From Paenibacillus sp. G2S3 (GTDB lineage Bacteria > Bacillota > Bacilli > Paenibacillales > Paenibacillaceae): DNA of 64,000 nt. Shown here one piece after another: positions 7,275-43,060 of the stretch. The notes beneath the pieces were generated by a model. The model ran no database searches, was not told the DNA's origin, and was given only the letters and a program-made list of their open reading frames with translations. Position 1 is the first letter of the stretch; each line of letters begins with the position of its first letter. Location of the stretch: the NCBI RefSeq assembly GCF_030123105.1, contig NZ_CP126095.1, forward strand, positions 4,898,001-4,962,000, read 5' to 3'. A program made the position numbers and the translations under genes.

Positions 7275-7847
7275 ATGAGAAAGATAGCAAGCGTAGCCGC
7301 AGTATTTGCAATTGTGCTATTGGTCGGATGCGGAAACTCAACCAATAACAACGCTAACGTCACCCCCACCGCCACAACTACACCTGGTAACACCAATAAT
7401 GCTGGCAACACTAATAACACCACAGATGCTGTAACCTCAGCGTCGGTAGTGGACAATGAAGAGGCCTTTAAAAAGGCTATCAGTGCAGAAGGTACTTGGA
7501 TTGCTGCTACACTGAAAGACTTGACCTTCACAGAGGATCTCGTGCTGGACGGACAATTTACGAATAAAGATGAACCCGCTCGTAAAATTGCTCTCTACAC
7601 ACAAGATGCAGATCACAATATCACCAACTCCTTTAAACTAACTGCACCTAAACTTACAATCAAAAGTAAAAACGCTCGTATTCAAGGCGGTACATTTATT
7701 GGTGATGTATACGTAGAAGCGGATGGCTTCAGCTTAGTAAATGCAACGGTTGAAGGGAATGTTTACTTCGCAGATGCTAAGTATCAATCCACCTTCGATA
7801 CCTCGGATCAAGGAAAAGTAACGGGTGTAACAGAAGTGAAAAAATAA
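7275..7847 (+). CDS. Secreted lipoprotein of unknown function
   Basis: A 190-residue lipoprotein. The signal peptide MRKIASVAAVFAIVLLVGC ends in an LVGC lipobox, followed by an Asn/Thr-rich linker of about 35 residues. The mature part alternates short beta strands (LTIKSKNARIQGGTFIGDVY, VEADGFSLVNATVEGNVYFA), a pattern like one or two turns of a right-handed beta-solenoid. GGGAGG lies 8 nt before the ATG. It stands alone between a repeat element and a terminator. Family not recognised; a cell-surface role is inferred from the lipobox. Confidence 0.8.
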   Translation: MRKIASVAAVFAIVLLVGCGNSTNNNANVTPTATTTPGNTNNAGNTNNTTDAVTSASVVDNEEAFKKAISAEGTWIAATLKDLTFTEDLVLDGQFTNKDEPARKIALYTQDADHNITNSFKLTAPKLTIKSKNARIQGGTFIGDVYVEADGFSLVNATVEGNVYFADAKYQSTFDTSDQGKVTGVTEVKK

Positions 7848-38731: not shown

Positions 38732-39931
38732 TTAAAGATTCTCCGTCACTTTTTTCTTGTGAATAAATAATCGAGCAGGTGACAACAAATAGACAATACT
38801 AATCAATCCAAACAAACAGGCGCTTACTTGAAAAGGCAACAGTTCATTTCCTGAGCTTCCCAGCCAGCCTCCAATTAGTGGACCAATAACTACCCCTAAA
38901 CCTTCTATGGAAAACAATAGTCCCCAGCTGATCCCTACGGAATCTTCGGGAATGTAGCCAGCCATTAAGGCATTCCAAGAGGGAAGCAAAGCCGCATAAG
39001 CACACCCCAGCAGAAGCGAGAGCCCAATGGCGGCGGAGAAGGAGTTAATAGAAGTTAAGCCGAACAAGGCAACTGCAAACACGCCAAACCCAACGACAAG
39101 GAACCATTTACCTCCCACTTGATCGAACCATTTTCCCATAGGTACAAGAAATAGAACTACGCCTACGCCTCCCATAAATAACACGATAGACAGCTGAGAA
39201 TGGGACAGACCCAGATGAGAAACAGCAAAGCTTGTTAGAAAAGGTACCAGTATCCCGCCCGCTGTAGTCTGCAGCAACATGCCAGGGACTAGAAATCCTC
39301 CCTTCTTCACTTTTTTCCATAGAGATACAAACTGCTCACCTACGGATATATCCACACACTTCACCGAGACCTTGTTCATCCTTACAAGACCTACCATGCT
39401 CCAGCCTGCTACGAAAAATAATCCAATGACGGCAAGGGACAGTGACAGCCCACCACCAATTAACAAATTCATCATTACGGGGCCCAGACCTAGACCAGCC
39501 ATCCAGTATACGTACAAGGTTCCCATCTGCTGTGCTCGTTTTTCCTCTGATACCTGGCTCATACATAGAATCCAGATCGGTGAGAATCCAGCACCCAAGC
39601 AAGCTGAAGCTACAATAATCATCCACGGACTATGCGTTGTCACCATTATCAATAATCCAATAAACCCAAGAAAGAACCCTCCATGAAGCACGGTGCGCCC
39701 AGGATATCTATCCAAGAGATAACCGATAAAGCTTTTGATCAAACTGTCTGTTAAATAGTGTATAGAGACCGCAAGGGCTACCACTGAGGTTGTAAGATCC
39801 CCATTCGTCAATACATAAGCCGGCAAAAAAGCGATCAGAACAGCCCCTCTTATCCACTCCATAAAAAAAAGAATCACTGCAAGGCGGGTAAACGTCTGCT
39901 GTGATCTTTCTTTCTTACCAATAATATCCAT
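38732..39931 (-). CDS. MFS transporter, LtaA-like candidate glycolipid flippase
   Basis: A 399-residue, 12-helix major facilitator. The first helix LAVILFFMEWIRGAVLIAF resembles the LtaA start (ILFLMEFARG). Motif A is seen in FDQVGGKWFLVVGFG-type loops. The chosen ATG 39931 lies inside the end of the glycosyltransferase gene (17-nt overlap); the frame is open to 39979. In Staphylococcus aureus ypfP-ltaA has this order and makes and flips the diglucosyl-diacylglycerol anchor of lipoteichoic acid. The pairing here suggests the same role, which is an inference. Confidence 0.75.
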   Translation of the reverse strand: MDIIGKKERSQQTFTRLAVILFFMEWIRGAVLIAFLPAYVLTNGDLTTSVVALAVSIHYLTDSLIKSFIGYLLDRYPGRTVLHGGFFLGFIGLLIMVTTHSPWMIIVASACLGAGFSPIWILCMSQVSEEKRAQQMGTLYVYWMAGLGLGPVMMNLLIGGGLSLSLAVIGLFFVAGWSMVGLVRMNKVSVKCVDISVGEQFVSLWKKVKKGGFLVPGMLLQTTAGGILVPFLTSFAVSHLGLSHSQLSIVLFMGGVGVVLFLVPMGKWFDQVGGKWFLVVGFGVFAVALFGLTSINSFSAAIGLSLLLGCAYAALLPSWNALMAGYIPEDSVGISWGLLFSIEGLGVVIGPLIGGWLGSSGNELLPFQVSACLFGLISIVYLLSPARLFIHKKKVTENL

Positions 39932-41102
39932 GAATCGTTTTCGCCTGCCCTTCAACAACCATAGATTTTGCAGATACAACGGAAGGCTGACGCAATTTAA
40001 TAGCCTCTAAAGCTTCGGTAACGATAATATCCGAGGCTGATTTTCGCGAAAATCCCTTCATATGCCGTTCTCTTTCATCGCTGTAGACCGTATCCTCTAA
40101 TCGTTGAAGCCGCTCTACTAACTGCTCCTCATTTCGTGCGATCTCTATCAAATGGTGCTCAGATAACCATTCTGCATTGCCTGCCTCCTGGCCAGGAAGC
40201 GGTCGATAGACGATAACCGGAAGTGTCTGAGCCATCGCCTCCGTCAATGTAATCCCACCTGCTTTGGTCAAAAGACAGGAAGCTATGCACATCAGCTCCT
40301 GCATTTCTTCCGTATATCCCAAAATGTGAACTCGTGGGTTCACTTGAAAAAGCTCCATCGTAGCTGTTCGAAGCTTATGATTATTCCCGCACAATACGAT
40401 GACATCGAAGCTTGATTGAAGAAGTATTCGTTTTATTAAACTGCCAATGTCACTTAATACGCCATAAGCTCCTGCCGCTAGTAATAGATATTGACGATTT
40501 CCGTTTAACCCATGTTTACGCAAAAGCGCTTCACGGTCCTGAGTCTGTTCAAAAGCCTCGCGAATAGGAATCCCACTGACTACAAGCTTCTCTTCAGCGA
40601 TCCCTGCTGACATCAAAGTTGCCTTCATGCTTTCTGAAGCGATAAAATATTTCGTCGTTTGTGGATGAAGCCACCTGCCATGAACCACATAATCCGTCAT
40701 AACGGTGAACAGAGGCATTCGACTGCCTGTTGTTAATGCTAGCTCAGCAGCGGCCAAATAAGGAAAAGTATGAATAATGATATCCGGCTGTATCTCGTTG
40801 ATGATCCTTCGTACTTTTCGTTTGCCCATAGAATGTAAGAGTTTACCCATGAACTGTTCTGGTCTCATCTTGCTCGTCACCGTGTACAAGAATCCATAAA
40901 ATTCTTGCGTATACCCTGTGTTGTTTAAATAGAATTTTCGGGACAACTCATTCAGGGTAGGATGGACTGCAGCGAATAGATCCAAGGTGGTAATCCGACT
41001 AATCCCTCTACGTCGAAATGAATGTTCGATGGCCTCAGCCACTTTCATATGCCCGTCTCCAAATGCCGAAGTAACAATAAGTACCTTAGGATCTGTGTTC
41101 AT
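39915..41102 (-). CDS. Processive diacylglycerol glucosyltransferase-like protein (UgtP/YpfP, GT28)
   Basis: A 395-residue GT-B glycosyltransferase. The N-terminal MGDG-synthase domain starts VLIVTSAFGDGHMKVAEAIE and carries IIHTFPYLAAAELAL; the C-terminal GT28 part has LLLAAGAYG, ILGYTEEMQELM and LTKAGGITLTEAMAQTLPVI. Family members add glucose from UDP-glucose to diacylglycerol at the inner membrane face. AAAAAGGAG sets the start at 41102 (frame open to 41123). It overlaps the LtaA-like gene behind it. Confidence 0.85.
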   Translation of the reverse strand: MNTDPKVLIVTSAFGDGHMKVAEAIEHSFRRRGISRITTLDLFAAVHPTLNELSRKFYLNNTGYTQEFYGFLYTVTSKMRPEQFMGKLLHSMGKRKVRRIINEIQPDIIIHTFPYLAAAELALTTGSRMPLFTVMTDYVVHGRWLHPQTTKYFIASESMKATLMSAGIAEEKLVVSGIPIREAFEQTQDREALLRKHGLNGNRQYLLLAAGAYGVLSDIGSLIKRILLQSSFDVIVLCGNNHKLRTATMELFQVNPRVHILGYTEEMQELMCIASCLLTKAGGITLTEAMAQTLPVIVYRPLPGQEAGNAEWLSEHHLIEIARNEEQLVERLQRLEDTVYSDERERHMKGFSRKSASDIIVTEALEAIKLRQPSVVSAKSMVVEGQAKTIHGYYW

Positions 41103-41456
41103 GACAAAGCTCCTTTTTCTCATGGCCTCCTTTAACTCTAACTCTGAATCGTAAACTGATAGTGAAGGGATTCTTAACTGAATATTAATTTCAATATTTA
41201 TAAAAAAAAGATCTCGTCTTTGTATGACCTGCCATTCTCTTTAGAACGCAAAAAAACGCTGACTTATGGCGATTAGCCTATAGTCACCGATTCGAAATAA
41301 GTATTCTGATTAATAACATCAGCAAGGTATGGATATACATAATTATGACAAAAAAGAAAAATTAGTTAGTAAAATACCGATTAAAGCGTTGATTGTTACA
41401 AAGTTATATAGTATTTTATGGAAGAAAGGTAATTTAAAAGAAGGGAGGAATTAAAC

Positions 41457-41669
41457 ATGGACAAGATGTGTATGGAAATGATGATGAACATGTGTATGGA
41501 TGATATGATGGCGAAGATGAACTGTATGAAGATGGGCATGGAAAAAATGTCTGAAATGGGCATGATGGACATGAACATGGATATGATGATGAAAAAAATG
41601 CAGGACTGCGATGAAATGATGACTATGTGTATGACAATGATGCGTGAAGGAATGCAAATGTCTAAGTAG
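41457..41669 (+). CDS. Methionine-rich (46%) Cys-containing small peptide
   Basis: A 70-residue peptide with 32 Met, 5 Cys, many Asp/Glu/Lys and almost no hydrophobic residues other than Met. It starts MDKMCMEMMMNMCMDDMM and ends MREGMQMSK. GGGAGG lies 8 nt before the ATG and a clean terminator follows at 41691, so it looks like a real transcription unit. Repeated MxM, MxxM and CxM spacings resemble copper(I)/silver binding patches of Met motifs, but no known family was recognised. No signal peptide. The reverse strand frame (His-rich) is its mirror, since ATG reads CAT. The 354-bp gap upstream (41103-41456) is AT-rich with no certain promoter. Confidence 0.75.
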   Translation: MDKMCMEMMMNMCMDDMMAKMNCMKMGMEKMSEMGMMDMNMDMMMKKMQDCDEMMTMCMTMMREGMQMSK

Positions 41670-41690
41670 CCAATAGACCATCGTAAGTTT

Positions 41691-41721
41691 GGCAGAGCAG
41701 ACTAACTGCATGCCTTTTTTT
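41691..41721 (+). terminator. Intrinsic terminator of the Met-rich gene
   Basis: GGCA-GAG-CAG, ACTAA loop, CTG-CA-TGCC, then seven T. Confidence 0.7.
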
Positions 41722-41752
41722 ATTTTCTCTTTAGAAACAAAATAGGCTTGAA

Positions 41753-42064
41753 TTATATCCTGATAAATCTATTCTGAATTTTCTTCGATATATTAATCCG
41801 TTCCAGCTTTAACTCCCAGATTTTCTCTTTCCACCGATACTGCTCTACTAGATCTCCACTTTCCCTCAGCTTACTAAATAAATCCATTAATATTGCGTTT
41901 ATATCATCGAATTGAATCCACAGCTCTTTCACGCTTTGTTCTGTTGTCTCAGCAGGAGAAGCTGTATTCAGCTTTTTCAAATGGTCTATGATGTCAGCTT
42001 GCCACTGCCCATCGTTAATTGCTTTGGCGTAGTTTAGTAGATCCAGATAATCATCGACAGACAT
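41753..42064 (-). CDS. Hypothetical helical protein, 103 residues
   Basis: Not recognised. An all-helical soluble protein (MSVDDYLDLLNYAKAINDGQ; LRESGDLVEQYRWKEKIWEL) with a coiled-coil-like end. The N-terminal half resembles the short IDEAL-like or YpiB-like helical segments of Bacillota only in general character. AAGGAG lies 10 nt before ATG 42064; the frame runs open to 42148. It is behind the glutamine-type importer operon on the same strand, after a terminator. Confidence 0.65.
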   Translation of the reverse strand: MSVDDYLDLLNYAKAINDGQWQADIIDHLKKLNTASPAETTEQSVKELWIQFDDINAILMDLFSKLRESGDLVEQYRWKEKIWELKLERINISKKIQNRFIRI

Positions 42065-42137
42065 TTTCACCGACTCCTTATTCTGTGTATACCCAGTATT
42101 ATACTCGGCATTATAGAAATTGCAATAGCAATACCTA

Positions 42138-42163
42138 AGAAAAGGCATCTTTTCAGATGCCCT
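42138..42163 (-). terminator. Intrinsic terminator of the amino-acid importer operon
   Basis: GGCATCT, TTTCA loop, GATGCC, with TTTTCT on the minus strand; 22 bp after the stop at 42185. Confidence 0.65.
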
Positions 42164-42184
42164 GACAATAGGATTCTTAATAAT

Positions 42185-43060
42185 TCACTGAACTTTTCCA
42201 CCTTCGACTACAAGCTCATCGGTAAACCCTTCGCCGTAAATTTCATTTAATGTTTCTTTGTAGGCTTTGTGGATAAATTGTTCTTTACCCAGGGTATCAA
42301 GTTCTGTATTAATCCAGTCCAGCAATTCCTTATTCCCCTTGGCCACCGCTGGGGCAATTGTATCCTGTCCCCCGAAGGCAGGAATACTGACTGTAAATTC
42401 AGGATTGGATTTAGCCCAAGCAATGAGTTCTGTATTATCGTTAGCTATTGCCGCACCCCGGCCATCTTTAAGTGCCGCGAAGATCTCTGTGTATTGATCG
42501 AATTTGAGTAACTCAATGTCCGGATATTCTTTAGTAAAATAGGTTTCTGCTGTCGTCCCCTTAGCCACAATAAGCTTTTGATTCTTCCCTTTCAATTGAT
42601 CGATAGAAGTAATTGGAGCACTGTTTGGAGATACAATTCCAAAGGATAATTTCATATATGGATTGGCAAAATCCACTTTTTCCTTTCTTTCATCAGTGAC
42701 CGTAAAGTTAGCCAAAATGATATCAACCTTACCCGATTCCAGATAAGCCACGCGACTGGCCGCATCGACTAGCACAAATTCAACCTTCGATTCATCTCCT
42801 AAAAGATCCTTAGCAAATCGCTTGGCAATATACACATCAAAACCTTGGTTTTTACCCTCAGAGTCCACATAACCAAAAGGTGGTTTGTCTGCAAATACAC
42901 CAATCTTTATCTTCCCTTTCTTCTTTAGCTGTTCAATAGAAGTAAATTTAGATGATGATGAATCACTATTGTTATCCGAAGTATTGCCGCAAGCTGCCAA
43001 TCCCATCAATAATATACTAACTCCTACCAGCATCGTTAGCCATTTCAACCTTCTCTTCAT
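42185..43060 (-). CDS. Amino-acid ABC importer binding lipoprotein (GlnH-like)
   Basis: Polar amino-acid binding protein, 291 residues. The signal peptide ends LLMGLAAC (lipobox AAC), then a Ser/Asn/Asp linker. Ligand-pocket marks are KIGVFADKPPFGYVDSEG, LVDAASRVAYLESGKVDIIL, NFTVTDERKEKVDFANPY and KGTTAETYF. Glutamine, glutamate or cystine-like cargo fits the family; this cannot be settled. Last gene of a four-gene operon permease-permease-ATPase-binding protein. Confidence 0.9.
   Translation of the reverse strand: MKRRLKWLTMLVGVSILLMGLAACGNTSDNNSDSSSSKFTSIEQLKKKGKIKIGVFADKPPFGYVDSEGKNQGFDVYIAKRFAKDLLGDESKVEFVLVDAASRVAYLESGKVDIILANFTVTDERKEKVDFANPYMKLSFGIVSPNSAPITSIDQLKGKNQKLIVAKGTTAETYFTKEYPDIELLKFDQYTEIFAALKDGRGAAIANDNTELIAWAKSNPEFTVSIPAFGGQDTIAPAVAKGNKELLDWINTELDTLGKEQFIHKAYKETLNEIYGEGFTDELVVEGGKVQ

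Follow-up and report, generated by a model that had tools for sequence, protein, structure and literature searches.

An open reading frame at positions 41457-41669 (plus strand) of the window, the 64,000-nucleotide stretch of Paenibacillus sp. G2S3 DNA analyzed here, raises the question of whether a protein made almost half of methionine is a true gene product and, if so, what it does in the cell. Its translation comprises 70 residues, of which 32 are Met (46%) and five are Cys, exactly as the first-pass annotation had read it. Such a richness (32 or more Met out of 70) has a binomial probability of ~5e-30 under an assumed background of 3%. Judged from sequence, composition alone cannot tell a gene from an ATG repeat, a distinction that conservation does provide. 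The start codon is preceded at 8 nt by a ribosome-binding-like GGGAGG (41443-41448, plus strand), the good ribosome-binding site reported earlier, and a similar site is present in 38 of the 39 homologous loci, a count that leans towards the motif as start codons were chosen partly by GGGAGG-like motifs. Further upstream, a promoter-like element (41389-41417, plus strand) is composed of TTGATT, a 17-nt spacer ending in TATAG, and TATTTT. The arrangement TTGnnn-N12-TRTAG-TAnnnT is found in most of 61 distinct upstream regions, the scoring pattern having been picked after viewing these regions, so that the counts lean towards it. Upstream of the Met gene in L073, L075, and L137, dyads seen by eye (e.g. 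CTTGAAAT-C-ATTTCAAG) run into the -35 region and are perhaps a candidate repressor site. The upstream glycosyltransferase gene (39915-41123, minus strand) is divergent from the Met gene, in agreement with the first reading of a divergent glycolipid gene.

The reading register is kept throughout 79 extracted Met proteins of 65-75 residues, a set in which some genomes appear twice and whose starts were trimmed by script. Over 28 distinct 70-codon genes, the sense frame has a pN/pS of 0.131, against 0.985 for the register of an antisense His-rich ORF and 0.58, 1.46, 1.86, and 3.66 for the remaining four frames, and the median pairwise dN/dS is 0.09 (13 members; 29 pairs with usable dS). The ORF 41457-41669 is a real gene under purifying selection, shared by many soil bacteria, and not a chance ATG repeat. 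The first-pass annotation would have fallen back on such a repeat if frame-conserved homologues or purifying selection were missing; the family is present in 112 of the order's 392 genomes, with a sense pN/pS of 0.13. The antisense frame (41451-41711, minus strand) is open over 86 residues and is His-rich, which could make it appear as the true gene, but no sign of selection was found in its register (pN/pS 0.98), and its openness is a by-product of ATG/CAT pairing. These pN/pS values by frame rule out both the chance repeat and the antisense gene, which we regard as exceedingly improbable.

With the single sequence as query, 37 of the 100 genus genomes are hit at E <= 1 (G075 and G077 only weakly), as are 99 of 394 genomes of the family at E <= 0.01. 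A 32-row profile identifies 35 of the 100 genomes in the genus and, across the order, 113 places in those 112 genomes, belonging to 24 of 49 genera; five of these places (G061, G093, G390, G407, and G424) cover only part of the profile. With a wider 20-row profile, 12 of 220 genomes of the class are hit, three of them from other orders. The Priestia relative P0025, used as a query, matches nine of 72,556 plasmid records, all from Priestia and none over 80% of the query. On the Priestia megaterium plasmid L123 (9917-10692), a Met-rich relative is followed by a convergent 53-residue ORF and a DUF2292 gene, without the partner gene described below. A phage origin was discarded, as 50,697 phage records gave zero matches with the low-complexity filter on. 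Neither Pfam nor NCBIfam matches the Met protein at E up to 1, consistent with the earlier statement that it is of a kind not recognised, and a search of PDB sequences gives no convincing relative, the two matches having E values of 0.85 and 1. Literature searches, mostly outside subscription journals, returned nothing on this Met-rich family. Of 26 relatives of the Met protein in databases, only six are from NCBI records, in which relatives of the partner are numerous, suggesting that gene callers skip the Met ORF. The family therefore seems largely missing from annotation, and similar low-complexity genes may be overlooked.

Conservation within the protein is positional. Nineteen positions are invariant in 32 members, six of which are not Met (C13, Q49, C51, D52, E53, and T56), the others being M8, M9, M12, M14, M17, M21, M26, M28, M39, M44, M45, M59, and M62; C51, E53, and several Met are still invariant in the wider set of 20 sequences. 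At the codon level, 20 ATG are invariant across the 28 distinct genes. Among Met/Cys pair spacings of 1 to 7, those of 3 and 4 are the commonest (21 each), and the number of Cys per protein varies between three and seven. The 2266 residues of the 32 members include neither His nor Phe, Trp, or Tyr, and Ile, Leu, and Val together account for 0.6%, so that Met is nearly the sole hydrophobic residue used; the wider set, in which some N-termini are untrimmed, has a few His, aromatic, or aliphatic residues. Met and Cys make up half of the protein, which also carries 12 acidic and eight basic residues. AlphaFold2 predicts, at moderate confidence (pLDDT 77.7, pTM 0.37), a hairpin of two helices (3-33 and 41-69), and the middle of the protein (residues ~30-42) is variable in length and sequence within the family. 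A Foldseek search of the predicted fold against the PDB reports zero matches at E <= 10. By eye, each half harbors a C-(x)-acid-acid-Met-Met stretch, at C13 and C51, in the manner of a pseudo-repeat. The N-terminus (MDKMCMEMMM...) displays no signal-like hydrophobic stretch by eye and the host is Gram-positive; the protein is probably cytosolic, as had been proposed at first.

Two features that the first-pass annotation missed surround the end of this gene: a near-obligate convergent partner and a covarying 3' hairpin. The partner (41753-42064, minus strand) encodes a 103-residue protein whose N-terminus bears the motif DDYLDLLNYA...D..W; were an in-frame ATG further upstream used, its start would be at 42148. 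AlphaFold models it as all-helical (pLDDT 79.1, pTM 0.52). A tail-to-tail partner of ~103-120 residues, 54-369 nt away, is present in all 49 loci tested, namely 39 of 40 fetched genome loci plus ten named contigs, partly redundant with these genomes, L058 being excluded because its Met gene is decayed. Clustering of the longest ORFs recovers the partner in 31 of 39 loci, the next commonest neighbor family of at least 90 residues occurring in only 19 of 39. From coordinates, the partner lies on the opposite strand within 2 kb at at least 110 of the 113 Met places (112 genomes), to which G407, which also carries it, is added; it is absent from the 11 kb fetched around the Met gene of G398. One genome of another order (L127) also possesses the pair. 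The partner could not be assigned to a named family: neither Pfam nor NCBIfam reports a match above cut-off, PDB sequences hold no convincing relative, and the 120 of 176 relatives listed are nameless, 'hypothetical', or bear scattered automatic names.

The N-terminal motif of the partner is found again in other proteins that this genome encodes, two of which have CxxC pairs, and is perhaps a recurring docking motif. D.LL..A....D..W is found near the end of these two small CxxC proteins (L089 1237-1644 and L090 1192-1644). A paralogue of the partner, L087 1522-1839 (at ~3024 kb of the same genome), follows a PTS-transporter-like gene and precedes a sigma-factor-like gene, both named by eye; neither Met gene nor hairpin was found at this locus. 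As the motif is common to paralogues, partner searches match 387 of 392 genomes of the order, and co-occurrence at the genome level is uninformative, adjacency being the useful measure.

The hairpin, GGCA-GA-GCAG-loop-CTGC-A-TGCC (41691-41714, plus strand), lies sense to the Met gene and is followed by a run of seven T (41715-41721, plus strand) that is terminator-like in this genome. It had first been taken for the gene's own terminator; hairpin and T-run are indeed there, but some homologues lack the T-run, and the supposed terminator is a conserved, covarying structured RNA element. Its folding energy alone is unremarkable (z -1.92 for a 38-nt stretch, z -1.19 for a 71-nt stretch). The motif GGCAGAGCAG-N3..8-CTGCATGCC has a single instance in this genome; across the order, 37 of the 392 genomes have it, always as one copy, and its reversed control was never found. 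It stands beside the Met gene in 36 of these 37 genomes (decayed in one, G093), and beside the partner in the 37th (G023), where the Met gene is absent from the stretch read. Of 90 loci in a redundant set, a relaxed scan locates the hairpin in sense orientation, 3' of the stop codon, in 83, with 0/90 in the antisense control and 3/450 in mononucleotide shuffles; counted by genome, the figure is 36 of 39 (L041-L080, L058 excluded). Seven of the eight base pairs change on both sides, which only 1/500 shuffles reaches, and the covariation score is reached by 0/500. Pairing affects 97.6% of hairpin cells vs 87.2% in shuffles (0/500), a share inflated by the pairing and motif filter with which the sequences were picked. 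Sliding the helix destroys the pairing. The alignment comprises 37 of the 39 distinct sequences, L059 and L060 having been dropped for their six-base loops.

The GA/A internal loop is largely kept, more than one copy, sometimes in tandem, is present in seven of the 90 loci, and the distance from the last codon varies between ~17 and 132 nt. A hairpin model reports a single convincing copy in this genome (35.3 bits), followed by matches of 22.3 bits (E 0.03) and 17.3 bits (E 1.2); the former, inside an apparent ORF by eye, was taken as chance. The scan is negative in the Saccharibacillus-like L064 and L065, in L071, and in L129, the last with a weak model match, and no hairpin was found in the three loci from other orders nor in the one Priestia plasmid scanned. 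Rfam analysis of 40900-42300 (E up to 5), and of five loci that carry one hairpin or several (E up to 0.5), reports nothing that overlaps the hairpin. A second, weaker type, GAAT-CYnnnnn-ATTC, is observed in 26 of 63 distinct stretches (L018, L075, and L130 for example), a count made without control and with a pattern drawn after viewing the sequences; absent from the window, it lies in several loci 3' of the stop codon and ahead of the main hairpin. At L075 only, a T-box leader (7363-7599, plus strand) is located ~1.7 kb downstream of the Met gene. Amino-acid leader peptides and attenuators have their regulated gene downstream on the same strand. Attenuation by Met starvation was rejected, since the next conserved gene is convergent at at least 110 of 113 places, and since the distance from last codon to hairpin is so variable.

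Loci devoid of the Met gene separate the three elements. Among 17 such loci fetched around the partner or a paralogue, the hairpin is found in six (L091, L093, and L102-L105) and a weak or variant form in two (L097 and L099); the model does not find it in the other nine, of which L092 and L094 at least resemble the paralogue locus. It also persists in two of three loci with a decayed Met gene (L095 and L106), where internal deletions have occurred between similar Met-rich stretches. The Met gene has lost its 3' frame in L107, has a 5' deletion in L093, and appears fully lost in L091. Such loss or decay in several loci indicates that the peptide is dispensable in some lineages. In L102-L105, close relatives that count as one case, a ~130-nt hairpin array stands beside the partner, between what by eye is a TATAAT box and a terminal T-run. 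Each array has two hairpins that the model recognises and a third visible only upon folding. From its sequence, this array is a candidate stand-alone small RNA. Folding of two among these four arrays gave z -4.95 and -3.50. A tree of 70 partner proteins, built on few columns, leaves 47 Met-bearing rows in no group, so that its change counts are uninformative on loss. By eye, Met-less rows adjoin Met-bearing ones in several starred clades (L093 with L054/L055, L110 with L136, and L099 with L059/L060).

Regarding function, the best supported reading appears to be a soft-metal trap, with an oxidant-responsive Met/Cys fold as a close rival. We tentatively propose, as plausible if still short of probable, a Met/Cys trap in the cytosol for Cu(I)/Ag(I)-type ions, with a regulatory hairpin and a coupled partner. 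The small cytosolic protein would fold as the predicted two-helix hairpin, possibly pairing into a bundle, and its hydrophobic and soft-metal-loving side chains would nearly all be Met and Cys. Its most likely cargo would be a soft monovalent metal, e.g. Cu(I) or Ag(I), for which the pseudo-equivalent stretches at C13 and C51 might form tight sites and the other thioethers a low-affinity reservoir. The conserved hairpin(s) ending the Met mRNA would probably bind a regulator or set mRNA lifetime, and the partner would be functionally coupled to the peptide. Ag+/Cu+ binding by helical Met is described for SilE, CueO, and hCtr1 (PMC5008109). Positional conservation and the invariant Cys speak for a metal or for a specific fold rather than for a simple sink. 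Against a metal trap count the absence of His and surroundings in which neither linked metal genes nor a metal operator were recognised, as well as the moderate AlphaFold confidence, the empty Foldseek search, and the loss of Met genes beside a kept partner. Copper, silver, or mercury genes were not seen to be linked, no neighbor family of at least 90 residues other than the partner exceeding 19 of the 39 loci, which bears out the early remark that the gene is not plainly part of a copper operon, and inspection of the upstream regions by eye recognised no metal-regulator operator. The sole copper-like context is that of L128, with a YtkA-like protein (below Pfam's cut-off) and a PepSY TM protein.

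Oxidation of Trp, Tyr, and His is not known to be repaired. The absence of these residues from the 32 members, together with repairable Met and Cys in half of the chain, is what an oxidant sink or a redox-switched fold would display, like MrpX/BcrX but inside the cell, a reading that we hold to be conceivable though rather doubtful. MrpX and BcrX would be its precedents, as sacrificial Met-rich peptides against hypochlorite (PMC8315932). Equally doubtful is the more specific form of a switch, in which oxidation of Met to sulfoxide would unfold the helices until MsrA/MsrB and thiol systems restore them. The Met gene of L127 is located 137 nt downstream of an ArsC-family gene that looks Spx-like. 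Composition would suffice for a sink, yet C13, Q49, C51, D52, E53, and T56 are invariant, the conserved neighbors seen in the 39 loci include no methionine sulfoxide reductase, and the MXKDX repeat named for BcrX was not seen by eye. The metal or oxidant buffer first suggested for this peptide would fit the near-invariant Met and Cys and the absence of His and aromatics, but a plain buffer explains neither hairpin nor partner, and the same holds for an oxidant fold. Hairpin and partner may be the most informative part of the locus.

The hairpin could instead be the main product of a dual-function transcript and the peptide the second, as in SR1/SR1P-type RNAs; this appears unlikely, as does its extension, a protein-binding or antisense RNA acting on the convergent partner. 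Such an RNA would account for the covariation (seven of eight pairs), the repeated hairpins, their retention beside the partner in six of 17 Met-less loci, the L102-L105 array with its TATAAT box, T-run, and low z, and the near-obligate tail-to-tail partner. However, the peptide is under strong protein-level selection, the array is a single case, and the tandem hairpins of the Met-bearing L067 and L075 fold less unusually (z -2.00 and -1.02). Moreover, 11 of the 17 Met-less loci, some of them paralogue loci, lack the hairpin or hold a weak or variant one (two), and it is absent from the three other-order loci and the scanned Priestia plasmid. The hairpin of L130 stays with the Met gene where the 11 kb fetched contains no partner, and an inserted gene separates the two elements, hairpin and partner, in L132. 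Alternatively, the Met core might offer a flexible hydrophobic surface to a protein client or to the partner, any involvement of metals and oxidants being incidental. The invariant polar residues adjoining Met and the near-obligate partner with its predicted helical fold suit this idea, which we judge decidedly improbable, as 0.6% of Leu, Ile, and Val and the absence of Phe in 32 members are unlike ordinary hydrophobic surfaces, and as peptide and partner occur apart in some genomes. A wider view, possible but more on the doubtful side, is that of a new three-part locus made of a helical hairpin protein with Met and Cys only, a dedicated bulged RNA hairpin in its transcript (present in one clade as a stand-alone RNA of several hairpins), and the near-obligate tail-to-tail partner, linked as a sensing circuit in which the metal or redox state of the peptide would control, or be controlled through, the hairpin RNA and the partner.

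If the Met protein does hold Cu(I)/Ag(I) or take up oxidants inside the cell, it would represent a cytosolic Met-based solution as opposed to Cys-based ones, the cytosolic copper proteins Csp3, CopZ, and metallothioneins relying mainly on Cys (PMC7558416). Hairpin and partner make the locus testable, peptide, RNA, and partner being separable.

The locus was compared with several known systems. A type I toxin-antitoxin system combines a hydrophobic membrane peptide with an antisense RNA overlapping its 3' end. The convergent layout fits, but the Met peptide is charged and the opposite strand encodes a conserved protein. SR1/SR1P of Bacillus subtilis also associates a small ORF with a transcript thought to have a second role at the RNA level (PMC8501984), while the conserved part here is a bulged hairpin, sometimes in tandem. 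MrpX and BcrX are likewise small and very Met-rich, with a plausible sacrificial oxidation; according to PMC8315932, their genes are linked to, or cotranscribed with, those of methionine sulfoxide reductases, MrpX is periplasmic, and BcrX is an MXKDX repeat protein. The Met protein, in contrast, has no export signal (by eye), no linked Msr, and no MXKDX repeat, and possesses conserved Cys. An MsrP/MsrQ-type operon was not encountered, the downstream gene being convergent and no same-strand neighbor of at least 90 residues being widely shared. SilE and PcoE share Met-containing helical motifs that could hold Ag+/Cu+, but SilE is periplasmic, has ten His, and uses His together with Met (PMC5008109), whereas the Met family is His-free in 32 members and no sil/pco-like neighbor was recognised. 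Csp proteins, four-helix proteins binding mainly via Cys (PMC7558416), are alike in the cytosolic location of Csp3 and in a helix bundle filled with soft-metal ligands; they differ from the two-helix model described here, in which Met replaces Cys, only 3-7 Cys remain, and no Pfam match is returned. MrpX/BcrX, SilE/PcoE, and Csp are thus each alike in one respect and each fail at least one tested defining feature; the Met protein may work like any of them without being a member.
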